From Oscillospiraceae bacterium (GTDB taxonomy: Bacteria > Bacillota > Clostridia > Oscillospirales > Ruminococcaceae), in NCBI GenBank assembly GCA_015067175.1, contig SVMX01000011.1:1-64000 (forward strand): DNA of 64,000 nt, read 5' to 3'. How positions within the stretch are numbered: the stretch's first letter is position 1; each line of letters starts with the position of its first letter. Below, piece after piece: positions 57,570 to 63,013 of the stretch. A model generated the notes under the pieces. The model saw only the letters and a program-made list of their open reading frames with translations. It was not told the origin of the DNA and did not search any database. Made by a program: the position numbers and the translations under genes.

Positions 57570-58259
57570 ATGGCTGATTTTAAGGAGCTGCAGACGGCAA
57601 TAGGCTACAGCTTTTCAAATACATCGTATCTTGAGCAGGCGATGACTCATTCAAGCTATTCGGGCGGCAAGAACAACGGCAGCAACGAGCGGCTTGAGTT
57701 TCTTGGCGACAGCGTTTTGCAGCTTACGGTGTCGCAGTATCTGTTCACGGGTATGAGCACTGAGCCTGAGGGCGGTATGACGAAGCTGCGCGCTTCGATA
57801 GTGTGTGAGAACTCGCTTTACAGCTTTGCAAAGAAGATAGACCTCGGAAGATATATCCTGCTTGGCAAGGGCGAGGAAATGACAGGCGGCCGCGACAGGC
57901 GTTCCATTCTTGCAGACGCTTTTGAGGCGCTTATCGCCGCGATATATCTTGACGGCGGCATGGAAAGAGCGCGAGAGTTTATCATGCGCTTTGTTCCGTC
58001 GATTGAGGCACTGAAAAGCGGCAAGGTAAAGCTTGGCGACTACAAGACCATTCTGCAGGAGATAATCCAGCAGAACCCCGAGGAGCGTATCTCCTACGAG
58101 ATCGAGGAGAGCGACGGTGCGGATCATCACAAGCTTTTCCGTGCGGCGGTGCTGCTGAACGGACAGCGCATCGGCAGAGGCTCGGGTCACAGCAAAAAGG
58201 AAGCTGAGCAGGCAGCCGCAAAGGAAGCCATTGGGCTTATGGGCTATGAAACAGACTAA
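57570..58259 (+). CDS. rnc: Ribonuclease III
   Basis: RNase III cleaves double-stranded RNA in rRNA maturation and regulation. The 229-residue protein has the endonuclease domain (1-150) with the signature NERLEFLGDSVLQL (about 36-49) and the metal-binding DAFEALIAAIYLDGG (about 113-127). A C-terminal double-stranded RNA-binding domain (about 155-225) ends with GSGHSKKEAEQAAAKEAI. I start at the ATG at 57570, just after the plsX stop; the frame also runs into plsX. The gene overlaps the radical SAM gene that follows. Confidence 0.96.
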   Translation: MADFKELQTAIGYSFSNTSYLEQAMTHSSYSGGKNNGSNERLEFLGDSVLQLTVSQYLFTGMSTEPEGGMTKLRASIVCENSLYSFAKKIDLGRYILLGKGEEMTGGRDRRSILADAFEALIAAIYLDGGMERAREFIMRFVPSIEALKSGKVKLGDYKTILQEIIQQNPEERISYEIEESDGADHHKLFRAAVLLNGQRIGRGSGHSKKEAEQAAAKEAIGLMGYETD

Positions 58260-59247
58260 TATTTCGATATTTATTCCGCATATCGGTTGTCCGCATAAAT
58301 GCAGCTTCTGCGATCAGAAAAGTATTTCGGGAGAGCAGAAAGCGCCGCGCGGCGATGATGTGAAAAAGCTGCTCGATGAGCAGGCTGAGCATCTTAAAGA
58401 GCGCGGAATGCGTGCAGAGATCGCGTTTTTCGGCGGCAGCTTCACGGCTGTTCCTAAAGCGTATATGACAGAGCTTCTTGAAGCCGCAAATGCTGCGATG
58501 AAGCGCTATCCCGAGGTGTATTGCGGGATACGCTGCTCTACAAGACCAGATTGTATTTCCGAGGAAATGCTTGATACTCTGAAGTCGTTTGGTGTAACGG
58601 CGATAGAGCTTGGAGCGCAGTCTATGTCAGACGAGGTGCTTTGCGCAAACGAAAGAGGTCACACCTCGGACGATGTGCGTAAAGCCTCGGAAATGATAAA
58701 AAACAGCGGTATTTCTCTCGGACTTCAGATGATGACGGGGCTTTACTGCGATACTGAGGCGGCTGTGCTTCACACCATGCGCGAGTTTATAGCGCTTAGC
58801 CCCGATACAGTCAGGGTCTATCCCACAGTTATACTTGAGGGGACGCGGCTTGGCGAGCTTTACAAAAGCGGCGTGTATCAGAGTTTCACATTTGAAGATA
58901 CGGTGCGTATCTGCGCAAGGCTTCTGAGAGAGTTTACCGCAAACGGTATCAAGGTCATTCGCATGGGGCTTCACGCAAGCGAGGACGTAGAAAAAGCGAT
59001 GCTTGGCGGCGTTTATCACCCCGCATTCAGAGAGCTTTGCGAAAGCCGTCTGTTTTTCGAGGACGCTGTTTCAGAGCTTTCCGCGCTTCAAAAGGGAGTG
59101 TATACGCTCTATACCGACCCGCGCAATATCAGCCGCGCCGTGGGACAGAAGCGCTGCAATCTGACTGAGCTTGAAAAGCTTGGCTACAAGGTCAAGGTAA
59201 AGCCTATGCAGGGCGAATATATAAAATTATGTGCATGGAACTTCTAA
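58246..59247 (+). CDS. Elp3/MiaB-like radical SAM protein of unknown substrate
   Basis: The 333-residue protein has the radical SAM cluster motif GCPHKCSFCDQ (CX3CX2C) near residues 14-24. The Elp3-type core (AEIAFFGGSFTAVP, GIRCSTRPDCI, TAIELGAQSMSD, LQMMTGLYCDT) and PGT-like strand VYPTVILEGT follow. It belongs to the radical SAM group found before smc in many Clostridia; the substrate is unknown, probably RNA. I use the ATG at 58246; a TTG five codons earlier is possible but the sequence of homologues starts here. It overlaps rnc by 14 bases. The stop codon lies inside the palindromic element that starts at 59232. Confidence 0.88.
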   Translation: MKQTNISIFIPHIGCPHKCSFCDQKSISGEQKAPRGDDVKKLLDEQAEHLKERGMRAEIAFFGGSFTAVPKAYMTELLEAANAAMKRYPEVYCGIRCSTRPDCISEEMLDTLKSFGVTAIELGAQSMSDEVLCANERGHTSDDVRKASEMIKNSGISLGLQMMTGLYCDTEAAVLHTMREFIALSPDTVRVYPTVILEGTRLGELYKSGVYQSFTFEDTVRICARLLREFTANGIKVIRMGLHASEDVEKAMLGGVYHPAFRELCESRLFFEDAVSELSALQKGVYTLYTDPRNISRAVGQKRCNLTELEKLGYKVKVKPMQGEYIKLCAWNF

Positions 59248-59403
59248 AAATCTCCCTCGCGGCAGAATTTCTATGCCAGACATCATCTGCTGTGTCAGAA
59301 AACCTTGAAATACATCAAGTATTACTGCGGTTTTCTTCCTTGCATCTGATGCCTGTTATAAACGAAATTCTGCTCGTGTTCCGATTTTTAGAGGTTCCTT
59401 GCA
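59232..59403. repeat. 172-bp imperfect palindrome between the radical SAM gene and smc
   Basis: The segment is symmetrical around about 59317. The outermost 21-base arms (59232-59252 and 59383-59403) match at 19 positions when one is reversed and complemented. Inner arms match perfectly: 59262-59271 with 59364-59373 (10 bases) and 59297-59304 with 59329-59336 (8 bases). A last 5-bp palindrome is at 59304-59308/59315-59319. Such nested symmetry over 172 bp would fold into one long hairpin as RNA or cruciform. It has no T-tract and no coding potential of its own. It contains the last five codons and the TAA of the radical SAM gene. It resembles a MITE or palindromic intergenic repeat. Confidence 0.75.
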
Positions 59404-59443
59404 GAAAAACTGAAATGCCGTGATATGCGGCGAGAGGTAATGA

Positions 59444-62400
59444 ATGTTTTTTAAAACACTGGAAATACAAGGGTTCAAGTCCTTTGCGGACAAGACCGTA
59501 TTGAATTTCGACACAAAGACCACTGCTGTTGTCGGAAGCAACGGCAACGGTAAAAGTAATATAAGTGACGCGCTGCGCTGGGTAATGGGAGAGCAGGGCG
59601 CCAAAACTCTGCGCGGAGAGAAGATGGAGGACGTTATCTTCCACGGCACCGTAGAGCGCAAGCCCATGGGCTTTGCAAAGGTTGCGCTGACCATTGATAA
59701 TTGCGACAGGGCGCTTGGCGTTGACGCTGACGAGGTAGTCATATCCCGAAAGCTGTATCGCTCGGGTGAAAGTGAGTATCTTATAAACGGGCAGAAATCG
59801 CGTCTAAAAGATATTCAGGAGATGCTGATGGGCACGGGCCTTGGCAGAGATGGTTATTCCATTGTGGGACAGGGCAGAGTTGCGGAGATAGTAAACGCAA
59901 GAGGCTCACAGCGCCGCGAGATATTTGAGGAAGCGGCGGGCGTGTCGTTGTTTCTCCATAAAAAGGCGGAAGCTGAAAGACAGCTTGAACGCGCCGAGGA
60001 GAATATCACGCGCCAAAAGGACATAATCCGCGTTGACGAGGAGCGTCTGCCGATACTGAAAAAGCAGTCCGAAAAGGCGGCGCTTGCAGCGGAGCTTTAT
60101 GCGGAGAAAAAGGAGCTTGAGATATCGGTCAGCACGGCAAGGCTTTCACAGCAGCGTGACGGGCTGAAGAAGCTTGATGACGATCTGCTTTTAAACCGCG
60201 CTGAAAGTGAGCATTATGAGCATGATATAAAGAAGCTTGAGGAGGATATTGAGGAGTCCTCCGAAAAGCGCATGAGGATACAGGCAGAGCTTGAGCGCTT
60301 CCGCAGAAGCCGTCAGACGGTGAATGACGAGATAGCCGAACAACGCGCGAATATTCAGGTCTTAGAAAACGACCTGCGACATAACGAAGAGCGCCGCGAG
60401 GAGCTTTCAAAGCAGATAGCCGACGCTGAGAAGAGCAGCAGCGGCTTTGACGAGGAGATAAAGGCAGTCGAACTGAAGATAACCGAAAAGGAGCGCGAGC
60501 TTTCCGATATCGCGGAAAAGCGCACGCAGGCGCAGACTACGCTTTCGGATATCGAGGGCAGGAGCGCCGAGGCTGACAAGGCTTATTCAGAGCTTGACGC
60601 AGAGCTTGCGCGCTGCTATCGTGAAAAGAGCGAGGCTGCGATAAAGTCCTCGCAGGCAGAGCGTGCCGCAGAGGAAGCTGAGGAGCAAAAAAGAGTATTC
60701 CTTGAAGGACTCAGCGACAGCGAGGCAAAGCTTAAAGAATATAACGACGGTAAAGCGGCGGCAGGGGCTTCGCTGAAAGCTATTGCAGAAAAGCGCGATA
60801 CCACAAAAAATAAGCTGATGGGCTATGAAAGGCTTAGCGGCGGCAAAAAGCGCCGCATGGAGGAAGCGAAAGCGGCTCTTGACGAGGTGAGCTCACAGCT
60901 TGGCTCAAAGCAGCAGAGATATAATGTTCTTCGTGATGTCGAGAACAGCATGGAGGGCTACTACCGCAGCGTTAAGGAGCTTATAAAAGCCTCAAAATCG
61001 GGCAGAATAAGCGGTATTCACGGCATCGTTGCGGACATAATCAACGTTGATGAAAAGTACGTTACTGCGGTGGAAACAGTGCTTCAGTCGGTTATGCAGC
61101 ACATTATTGTTGACAATGAGGACACCGCAAAGCGCTGTATCAGATTTTTGAAGGAAACCAATGCGGGTCGTGCCACGATGCTCCCTATTTCGAGCATGAA
61201 AGGCCGCTCAATAAACGAGCCGCGCCTGTCCTCGGAGGAGGGCTTTGAGGGCATTGCAAGCGAGCTTGTGCAGTGCGATGATGAATATGCGGAGATAGTC
61301 AGATATCTGCTCGGCACTACTGCGGTGGTTGACGATATCGACACTGCCGCTTACATCGGCAAGCGCTACGGTAATAAATTCCGTATAGTTACGCTTGATG
61401 GTCAGGTGGTAAATGCGGGCGGCTCATTCACGGGTGGTAGTAAGGTCACGGGCAGCGGTATAATCTCCCGAAAGCAGGAGATAGAAGCGCTGTATAATGA
61501 GATAACCAAGCTTCGCCGAGAGCAGAACGAAAAGAACGAGGAATACAGTCAGTATCAGGCCGAGGCAGCGAAATTCTCTATCGAGATGGAGGGAATGCAG
61601 GAGGAGCTGCGCGACCTTGATAACGAGGAGATCCGCGTAAATGCCGAGCTTGCAAGACTTGACAGCCTTATTTCTCAGCTTTCACAGCAGGGAGAAACAG
61701 CGAAGCTTACTGTAGAGCGCTTTGACGCGCAGATAAAGCAGCAGCGCGGTATCATTGAGGAGAGCGCAAAGCTTACAGCTGAAAGTGATAAGGAGATATC
61801 CGCACTGGAGGCAAAGCTTTCCGAGTCGGATTCCGAGAGAAGCAGCACAGCGGAGCGCATAAGAGCGCTGTCCGATGAGATAGCGCAGCTGAATCTTTCT
61901 GAAGTCGCAGCGGCAAAGGATATAGACGCTTTCCGCGGCGAGATACGCGGTATTGAGAATAATCGCAGGCTGCTTATAGAAAACAGCGGCAACTACAAGG
62001 AAACCATGCAAAGACTGTCGGAAAGCGACGATGAGATACGTCTTGAAATAGAGCGTGTGAAGCTGTCTGTTCAAAAGCAGACCGAGAGCCTCAGCGAAAA
62101 TGACGATGATATACGCCGATGCTCCGAGGAAGTGACAGCGCTTGAGCAGAAGATAGAATCAATGCACCGCGATGTCAGAGAGGCTACCGACAACAAGGAG
62201 AAATTCAATCGTGAGGTGGCACGTCTGGAGGAGCGCCGCGCAGGCGTTCAAAAGGACTACGACAGCATCGTGAAGCTGCTTTACGAGCGGTATGAGCTTA
62301 CCGTTTCCATGGCGGTTGAGCAGGCGAAGCCGCTGGAAAACCTTATGGCGGCGGAAAACGAGCTATCCGAGCTTAACAGGCGCATAAGCGCACTTGGCAG

Positions 62401-63013
62401 CGTGAATATGGATTCCATTGAGGAATACCGCACGGTGGCTGAGAGATATGAGTTCCAGACGGCGCAGCTCAGCGACATCGAAAGCTCCAAGCGTGAGCTT
62501 GAAAAGCTTATCGAGCAGCTCACGGGCGACATCAAGACACGTTTCCTCAACAGCTTTGAGGAGATAAACCGCCATTTCGGAGAGATATTCGTCAGCGTTT
62601 TCGGAGAGGGCGCGCGCGCAGAGCTTGTGCTGACCGACCCCGACGATGTGCTTAATTCGGGCATCGAGATAAATGCCGCTCCTCCCGGAAAGGTGATAAA
62701 AAATCTTATCTCGCTTTCGGGCGGTGAGCAGACGATGGTCGCTATCACGATATATTTTGCGATACTTCGTCATCGTCCCACTCCGTTCTGTATGCTGGAC
62801 GAGGTGGACGCGGCGCTTGACGATGTGAACGTTGACAAATACATATCCTATCTTAGTCAGTTCAGCAATCACACTCAGCTTATGGTGATAACTCACCGTC
62901 GCGGTACTATCGAGGGCTGCGAGGTGCTTTACGGCGTATTCATGCAGGAAAAGGGCGTGTCCCGTCTGCTGCGCCGCGAGCTTACAGACGAGCTTGATGT
63001 AGAACTTAAATAA
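59444..63013 (+). CDS. smc: Chromosome segregation ATPase SMC
   Basis: SMC dimers with ScpA and ScpB form the condensin that organises and segregates the chromosome. The 1189-residue protein has the N-terminal Walker A VVGSNGNGKSNISDALRWVM (about 29-48) and long coiled coils (about 170-510 and 690-1020). A globular hinge (about 520-680, with GIHGIVADIINV and AGGSFTGGSKVTG) lies between them, and the C-terminal head carries the ABC signature LSGGEQ and Walker B MLDEVDAALDD. The length is typical. The start has a gagaggt site and lies 40 bases after the palindromic element. ftsY follows 11 bases downstream, as in most Firmicutes. Confidence 0.97.
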   Translation: MFFKTLEIQGFKSFADKTVLNFDTKTTAVVGSNGNGKSNISDALRWVMGEQGAKTLRGEKMEDVIFHGTVERKPMGFAKVALTIDNCDRALGVDADEVVISRKLYRSGESEYLINGQKSRLKDIQEMLMGTGLGRDGYSIVGQGRVAEIVNARGSQRREIFEEAAGVSLFLHKKAEAERQLERAEENITRQKDIIRVDEERLPILKKQSEKAALAAELYAEKKELEISVSTARLSQQRDGLKKLDDDLLLNRAESEHYEHDIKKLEEDIEESSEKRMRIQAELERFRRSRQTVNDEIAEQRANIQVLENDLRHNEERREELSKQIADAEKSSSGFDEEIKAVELKITEKERELSDIAEKRTQAQTTLSDIEGRSAEADKAYSELDAELARCYREKSEAAIKSSQAERAAEEAEEQKRVFLEGLSDSEAKLKEYNDGKAAAGASLKAIAEKRDTTKNKLMGYERLSGGKKRRMEEAKAALDEVSSQLGSKQQRYNVLRDVENSMEGYYRSVKELIKASKSGRISGIHGIVADIINVDEKYVTAVETVLQSVMQHIIVDNEDTAKRCIRFLKETNAGRATMLPISSMKGRSINEPRLSSEEGFEGIASELVQCDDEYAEIVRYLLGTTAVVDDIDTAAYIGKRYGNKFRIVTLDGQVVNAGGSFTGGSKVTGSGIISRKQEIEALYNEITKLRREQNEKNEEYSQYQAEAAKFSIEMEGMQEELRDLDNEEIRVNAELARLDSLISQLSQQGETAKLTVERFDAQIKQQRGIIEESAKLTAESDKEISALEAKLSESDSERSSTAERIRALSDEIAQLNLSEVAAAKDIDAFRGEIRGIENNRRLLIENSGNYKETMQRLSESDDEIRLEIERVKLSVQKQTESLSENDDDIRRCSEEVTALEQKIESMHRDVREATDNKEKFNREVARLEERRAGVQKDYDSIVKLLYERYELTVSMAVEQAKPLENLMAAENELSELNRRISALGSVNMDSIEEYRTVAERYEFQTAQLSDIESSKRELEKLIEQLTGDIKTRFLNSFEEINRHFGEIFVSVFGEGARAELVLTDPDDVLNSGIEINAAPPGKVIKNLISLSGGEQTMVAITIYFAILRHRPTPFCMLDEVDAALDDVNVDKYISYLSQFSNHTQLMVITHRRGTIEGCEVLYGVFMQEKGVSRLLRRELTDELDVELK

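Follow-up and report, generated by a model that had tools for sequence, protein, structure and literature searches.

Small palindromic repeats of bacterial genomes are often dismissed as DNA debris, or are assumed to be active as RNA without a test of that assumption. The ERIC sequences are enterobacterial, and other families have been described. Bacterial MITEs such as Correia/NEMIS, RUP and YAPL/RU-2 appear, in the available part of PMC2229807, as non-coding elements of about 100–200 bp with terminal inverted repeats, target duplications and stem-loop transcripts, and RNase III is described as cutting at Correia ends (PMC10969869, available part). The repeats bcr1–bcr3 of the Bacillus cereus group are multi-copy, MITE-like and intergenic, with many copies forming part of mRNAs (PMC3446304, available part), and for Bcr1 a length of 167 bp and a conserved predicted structure are given (PMC2267715, available part). 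Finally, the MRSC-65-2 motif is structured, is often found in dozens of copies per genome and sometimes lies near a transposase; in the portion of PMC11109978 available, its authors leave open whether RNA or DNA is the relevant form.

The locus described here lies in a stretch of 64,000 nucleotides (the window; positions 1 to 64,000 of contig SVMX01000011.1, assembly GCA_015067175.1) from an Oscillospiraceae bacterium. A palindrome in the window is very probably a copy of a non-autonomous, MITE-like transposon whose folded core is biased to one strand. In kind the element is ordinary, MITE-like and inserted at the end of a gene; what appears unusual, from comparison of its copies, is that one structured core stands under many transposon ends and that the fold seems to be kept on one strand. 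The element resembles Correia/NEMIS, RUP and YAPL/RU-2 in its length, its lack of coding capacity, its terminal inverted repeats and the target duplications of its family, and differs from them, as they are described in the available part of PMC2229807, in that a single module is found under 12 hand-sorted end classes, with varied duplication lengths and a one-strand-biased fold. Its family is likewise multi-copy and MITE-like as bcr1–bcr3 are, and close to Bcr1 in length (PMC3446304, PMC2267715), but it belongs to another host group, and neither end swapping nor a G-U/A-C strand test figures in the available descriptions of bcr1–bcr3, by which the comparison was made. The MRSC-65-2 motif, comparable as a structured, often many-copy motif sometimes found close to a transposase, can be set apart by its description, since its conserved repeat is UYCCGG (PMC11109978, available part), unlike the tip of the present family. 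A name for this family was not found in the literature searched by title and abstract opening, nor in the available passages on related repeats.

The palindromic element in the window

The complete element spans positions 59237–59398 (162 bp), with bounds set by comparison with other copies of the family. Its orientation, taken from the conserved core, is +, and the conserved fold lies on the minus strand. The left terminal inverted repeat GGAACTTCTAAAAATC (59237–59252, + strand) and the right one GGAACCTCTAAAAATC (59383–59398, − strand) are 16 bp long, belong to end class T1 and differ from each other by one mismatch. The family covariance model R1 matches 59246–59389 on the + strand with 75.1 bits, and the conserved tip TTGAAATACATCAAGTATTACTGCG occupies 59305–59329 (+ strand). 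Short as MITEs are (under about 300 bp), the element carries no transposase gene; the only reading frames across it are an ORF of 64 aa and others due to chance.

Three nested arm pairs share a centre near 59317. The outer pair, 59227–59252/59383–59408 (26 nt, 85% complementary), includes a 21-nt arm noticed in a previous sequence-only reading of the window; within it, on the + strand, the left inner arm 59262–59271 pairs with the right inner arm 59364–59373 (10 nt, 100% complementary), and the left and right arms of the tip-proximal helix, 59297–59304 and 59329–59336, pair with each other (8 nt, 100% complementary). The nested palindromic arms around a common centre, as that reading had proposed them, are real. 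As RNA, 59222–59413 folds at −72 kcal/mol, far below shuffled sequences (mean −35.2; z −9.9; none of 200 as good). It had also placed the final five codons and the stop of the upstream gene in the first arm; the stop is indeed there, preceded in the arm from 59232 by four whole codons rather than five (GCA TGG AAC TTC TAA). The outermost bases of the arms as first drawn are the TGCA that flanks the element on both sides, one base beyond the terminal repeats (59232–59235 and 59400–59403). This pair is a possible target duplication, for which it is weak evidence since TGCA is itself palindromic, and no exact duplication was found directly at the ends of this copy.

Distribution of related copies

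In its own genome (2.14 Mb, 84% complete) the element was found once. BLAST returned this copy alone, together with 13 matches of 14–26 bases at E ≥ 0.1, and no second copy was found by the covariance model at E ≤ 0.01 (one match in total). Among the relatives, BLAST at E ≤ 0.01 gave matches in 21 of 61 genomes (the own genome and 20 of 60 others), all of the same genus. When 43 genomes of the genus were scanned with a pattern for the tip, at most 2 mismatches being allowed, it occurred 78 times, in 22 of them, and the reversed pattern twice. The covariance model detected copies in 31 of these 43 genomes, with up to 67 in one; its copy counts are lower bounds, because 75 candidates were scored per genome and the filters were strict. 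An even draw of 299 genomes from the phylum, in which 10 candidates per genome were scored, gave matches at E ≤ 1e-4 in 5, the window's own genome among them. A scan of named genomes returned at least 120 stretches, and the tip could be located in 109 loci; among the matches listed, 102 of these loci are from Clostridia and 69 from Oscillospiraceae by title, and the others include two Bacteroides and one Myxococcales MAG, which could be binning errors. One BLAST query each against phages and plasmids gave no match. The tip pattern also occurs in four viral contigs (L224–L227), and in three it lies no more than about 50 bases from where the available stretch ends.

The family is present in many rumen and gut bacteria, where it is mostly intergenic and can rewrite gene ends. 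Among 88 elements with enough flanking sequence, 10 lie inside an ORF; both neighbouring genes run in the sense of the core in 19 and against it in 21, the rest having mixed neighbours or a neighbour missing. With neither direction preferred, nothing indicates that the neighbouring genes make use of the element. A group of copies (L112, L114, L118, L136 and L167, also L198 and L220) has a common right half, attttccgcctcgctacaggcgaaaaatc..., with left flanks that are unrelated or rearranged, as might result from recombination at the tip; a single MAG, Red_deer_2_mag_2, is the source of the first five.

Ends, target duplications and transposases

The inner part of the element is common to all end classes, which were sorted by hand into 12, three of them holding just one or two elements. 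The same class was found on both sides in 145 of 199 element instances, and the 54 that were unclear or unequal were dropped. Exact 4-bp duplications lie directly at the ends of 17 of 92 elements, where permutation gives 1.7 on average (at most 7 in 2000 draws). Exact 3-bp duplications over all classes, also 17, fall within permutation (mean 9.2, maximum 20), and reverse-complement 4-bp matches were seen at the ends of 4 of the 92 elements. When 143 elements were counted by class, the duplication was of 3 bp in T2 (28 of 35; permuted 16.1) and T7 (7 of 15; permuted 2.3), and of 4 bp in T4 (12 of 25; permuted 2.2) and T5 (4 of 8; permuted 1.0). Class T1, that of the window copy, has few duplications, of 5 bp in 2 of 15 elements (permuted 0.2). 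The dinucleotide TA adjoins T3 ends in 16 of 22 cases and T6 ends in 9 of 11, values that do not exceed permutation, and so may reflect a target preference.

A tree of 93 inner cores leaves 39 of its 90 inner branches unresolved. On it, 28 changes of end class are counted, where at least 11 are needed and shuffling gives 63.8 on average. The end classes seem to be inherited, yet replaced repeatedly over time, and a core common to many of them makes it possible to study how non-autonomous elements switch transposase.

The element would be moved in trans, through its ends, by IS5-like (DDE) transposases made elsewhere. A profile search with PF01609 (DDE_Tnp_1), whose transposases we take to be of the IS5-like family, found matches in 9 of 14 genomes and none in the window's own genome, at 84% completeness. 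In another genome of the same genus (G015, loci L243/L248), T1 ends lie 1.2 kb apart around a PF01609 ORF, interrupted by a TAG in L243. The element is similar to this putative IS5-like insertion sequence in its T1 ends and differs from it in having no transposase; the two share, as judged by eye, only their ends. Across the relatives in which transposase genes have matching ends, most of these genes are fragments or interrupted. Clear T1 ends were seen at one place only among 28 PF01609 loci; T5-like ends were seen at 9 of the 28, a raw count with no chance level attached and with some loci overlapping, and L229, L231, L232 and L234 are PF01609 loci with other, unrelated inverted repeats. A search of 12 genomes for an autonomous partner of class T2 (pattern GAGCCTGTTTAGTATCTC) showed no pair 1–2 kb apart among the matches listed, where the pairs are mainly about 160 bp or 50–80 bp apart. 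Some T2-end pairs, L247 1165–1246 among them, are mini-palindromes of about 50–80 bp, too short to hold the core.

Fold of the shared core

The inner module can adopt the form of a long hairpin in which the internal loops are conserved, and its base changes favour pairing, with G-U wobbles counted in, on just one of the two strands. For the alignment, 55 inner regions were picked and 52 were kept and analysed on both strands; L029, L043 and L135 looked less regular and were set aside by hand, a choice that may inflate the covariation value. The consensus collinear with the + strand folds at −11.2 kcal/mol with 24 pairs, 20 of them with two-sided changes, whereas that of the complement, from the same 52 elements, reaches −35.6 kcal/mol with 35 pairs, 31 of them with two-sided changes. 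On the complement, 90.2% of the cells are paired, against 64.8% in shuffled and at most 51.1% in slid versions, and the covariation is 0.623, against 0.169 and at most 0.164, respectively; the structure was derived from the same 52 sequences, which favours the real over the slid versions. Model R1 was built on the canonical strand (collinear with +), though the complement folds better.

The same preference is seen in single elements, counted, as for the arms below, after removal of near-copies more than 80% identical. The complement is the more stable strand in 79 of 80 elements with RNA parameters and in 78 of 80 with DNA parameters, and in 71 of 72 when the ends are trimmed, L043 being the exception. 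The window copy itself shows little difference (−67.5 for the complement, −64.2 for the + strand). The conserved loops of the complement are purine-rich and, by eye, the tip-proximal helix is surrounded by two oppositely oriented copies of a C[AA]G/C[GCA]G internal loop; the bases of the internal loops are conserved across the 52 diverse elements. Rfam reported one tRNA only in the window and no known family for the element, and in 20 other copies four matches to microRNA precursors, far below gathering scores.

Probable selection on one strand

If only the palindrome in DNA matters, G-T and A-C mismatches between the arms are expected in equal numbers, since a G-T mismatch on one strand is an A-C mismatch on the other. 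Their comparison is a simple test, needing nothing beyond sequence, for selection of one folded strand, and it was run on this one family alone. The arms were aligned in a strand-neutral manner, and mismatches were counted only where flanked by matches, in the inner arms without the tip and the ends; six or seven odd loci were omitted from the arm counts, and 14 of 80 extra copies lacked a recognisable tip at the cut-off used. The inner arms of the complement hold 133 G-T against 21 A-C mismatches (p 4e-21 on the assumption of independent cells, which they are not fully), with 55 of 72 elements leaning to G-T on the complement, 4 leaning the opposite way and 13 even. A column-wise count over 80 sequences gives 189 G-T against 89 A-C on the complement, a looser one that includes loops gives 387 against 230, and the terminal 18 bases lean likewise (41 against 12). 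Because related copies have inherited some changes in common, the pairs and mismatches counted do not represent independent events. The excess of G-T over A-C on one strand argues that one folded strand, the complement of the window's + strand, is probably under selection, as RNA or as single-stranded DNA. Folded in this way, the single strand may perhaps be a site recognised by a protein and aid the persistence or the movement of the element.

That selection sees a folded single strand, more likely RNA than single-stranded DNA, has about an even chance. Wobbles make up 149 of 1634 standard pairs (9.1%). A share of this size looks RNA-like and suggests RNA, but the pairs come from a prediction by RNA rules, which favours wobbles. 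The other form, single-stranded DNA, for example a one-strand hairpin at the replication fork or in transposition, is somewhat less probable, although still a serious candidate. It agrees with the DNA energy parameters, which pick the same strand as the stabler one (78 of 80), and with the occurrence of the element in both orientations to genes; the wobble share, read with the same limits, counts against it.

It is unlikely, by comparison, that the element is an ordinary MITE, in which DNA processes alone, such as copying from arm to arm at the replication fork, preserve the palindrome and neither folded strand is selected. The terminal repeats, the target duplications and the lack of an orientation bias all belong to the DNA level, and arm-to-arm copying would also give rise to compensatory changes. 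Such copying should, however, remove mismatches, yet the internal-loop bases are conserved in 52 elements, and it predicts equal numbers of G-T and A-C, where 133 and 21 were seen on one strand.

The MITE-like transposon with a strand-biased core, preferred here, can be taken a step further. Tentatively, and with less confidence than in the transposon itself, the folded RNA (or single-stranded DNA) module could be the true selfish unit, selected on one strand, repeatedly gaining new ends, riding several kinds of transposase and parasitising transposons across the Oscillospiraceae. The reading of several transposases comes from the duplication lengths (3, 4, perhaps 2 and 5 bp).

The radical SAM–smc junction

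The element lies between a radical SAM gene (58231–59247, + strand; an ORF named in the sequence-only reading) and a downstream ORF (59444–63013, + strand) which we take to be smc, from the name given in the same reading and from its sequence motifs. The final codons of the radical SAM ORF and its TAA stop (59245–59247) fall within the left end of the element, the stop inside the left terminal repeat. The left end would have replaced the last codons of the gene and supplied a new stop. A radical SAM match was present in 48 other genomes, and in the best 29 of these the radical SAM–smc junction was read; the element is absent from all 29, so that the window's junction alone has it among the 30. 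The two genes are spaced by −11 to 38 bp in 27 of the 29. The covariance model also matched this junction in the window's genome alone, with weak matches elsewhere in L052 and L053 (E 0.009 and 0.27).

The first proposal, that a mobile palindromic repeat had inserted at the end of a gene, is borne out by the many copies dispersed in the genus, the empty junction in 29 relatives, the transposon-like ends and the target duplications of the family. A single-copy sequence with no covariation had been named as evidence to the contrary; the copy is single in its own genome, and covariation among the relatives is strong. The second proposal, a structured RNA local to the 3' part of the rnc–radical SAM–smc transcript and cut by RNase III, is not borne out. 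The hairpin in the sense transcript is very stable, it lies downstream of an ORF that was named as the RNase III gene, and RNase III is reported to cut transcripts of Correia elements (PMC10969869, available part). The absence of the element from the 29 other junctions, the better conserved fold on the opposite strand and the unbiased orientation of the family to genes (19 with both neighbours in sense, 21 with both against, of 88) nevertheless make such an RNA quite improbable, and the operon transcript in the window would contain the less favoured strand of the element. What survives of the structured-RNA idea is a fold maintained on one strand throughout the family, without the tie to this operon. 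An intrinsic terminator of the radical SAM gene, suggested by the position just past the stop codon, is hardly credible for an element 162 bp long, of a dispersed family without orientation bias, followed after 59398 by TTGCAGAAAAAC, where, as previously noticed, no T-tract follows the right arm.

The remaining two of the 29 junctions carry different inserts, of 170 bp (L067, genome G023) and 404 bp (L063, genome G033). The former is a second palindromic element with T1-like ends and a different tip (CAAGGC/GCCTTG), which likewise provides the stop of the radical SAM gene and whose relatives match in 17 of 41 genomes. Since this insert and the window element both have T1-like ends, the end of the radical SAM gene has been struck twice by such elements. 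The 404-bp gap in L063, with a very strong fold (−180.8 kcal/mol over 450 nt) and a direct repeat CCAATTGAGAAATTTGAA..., is apparently another insert.
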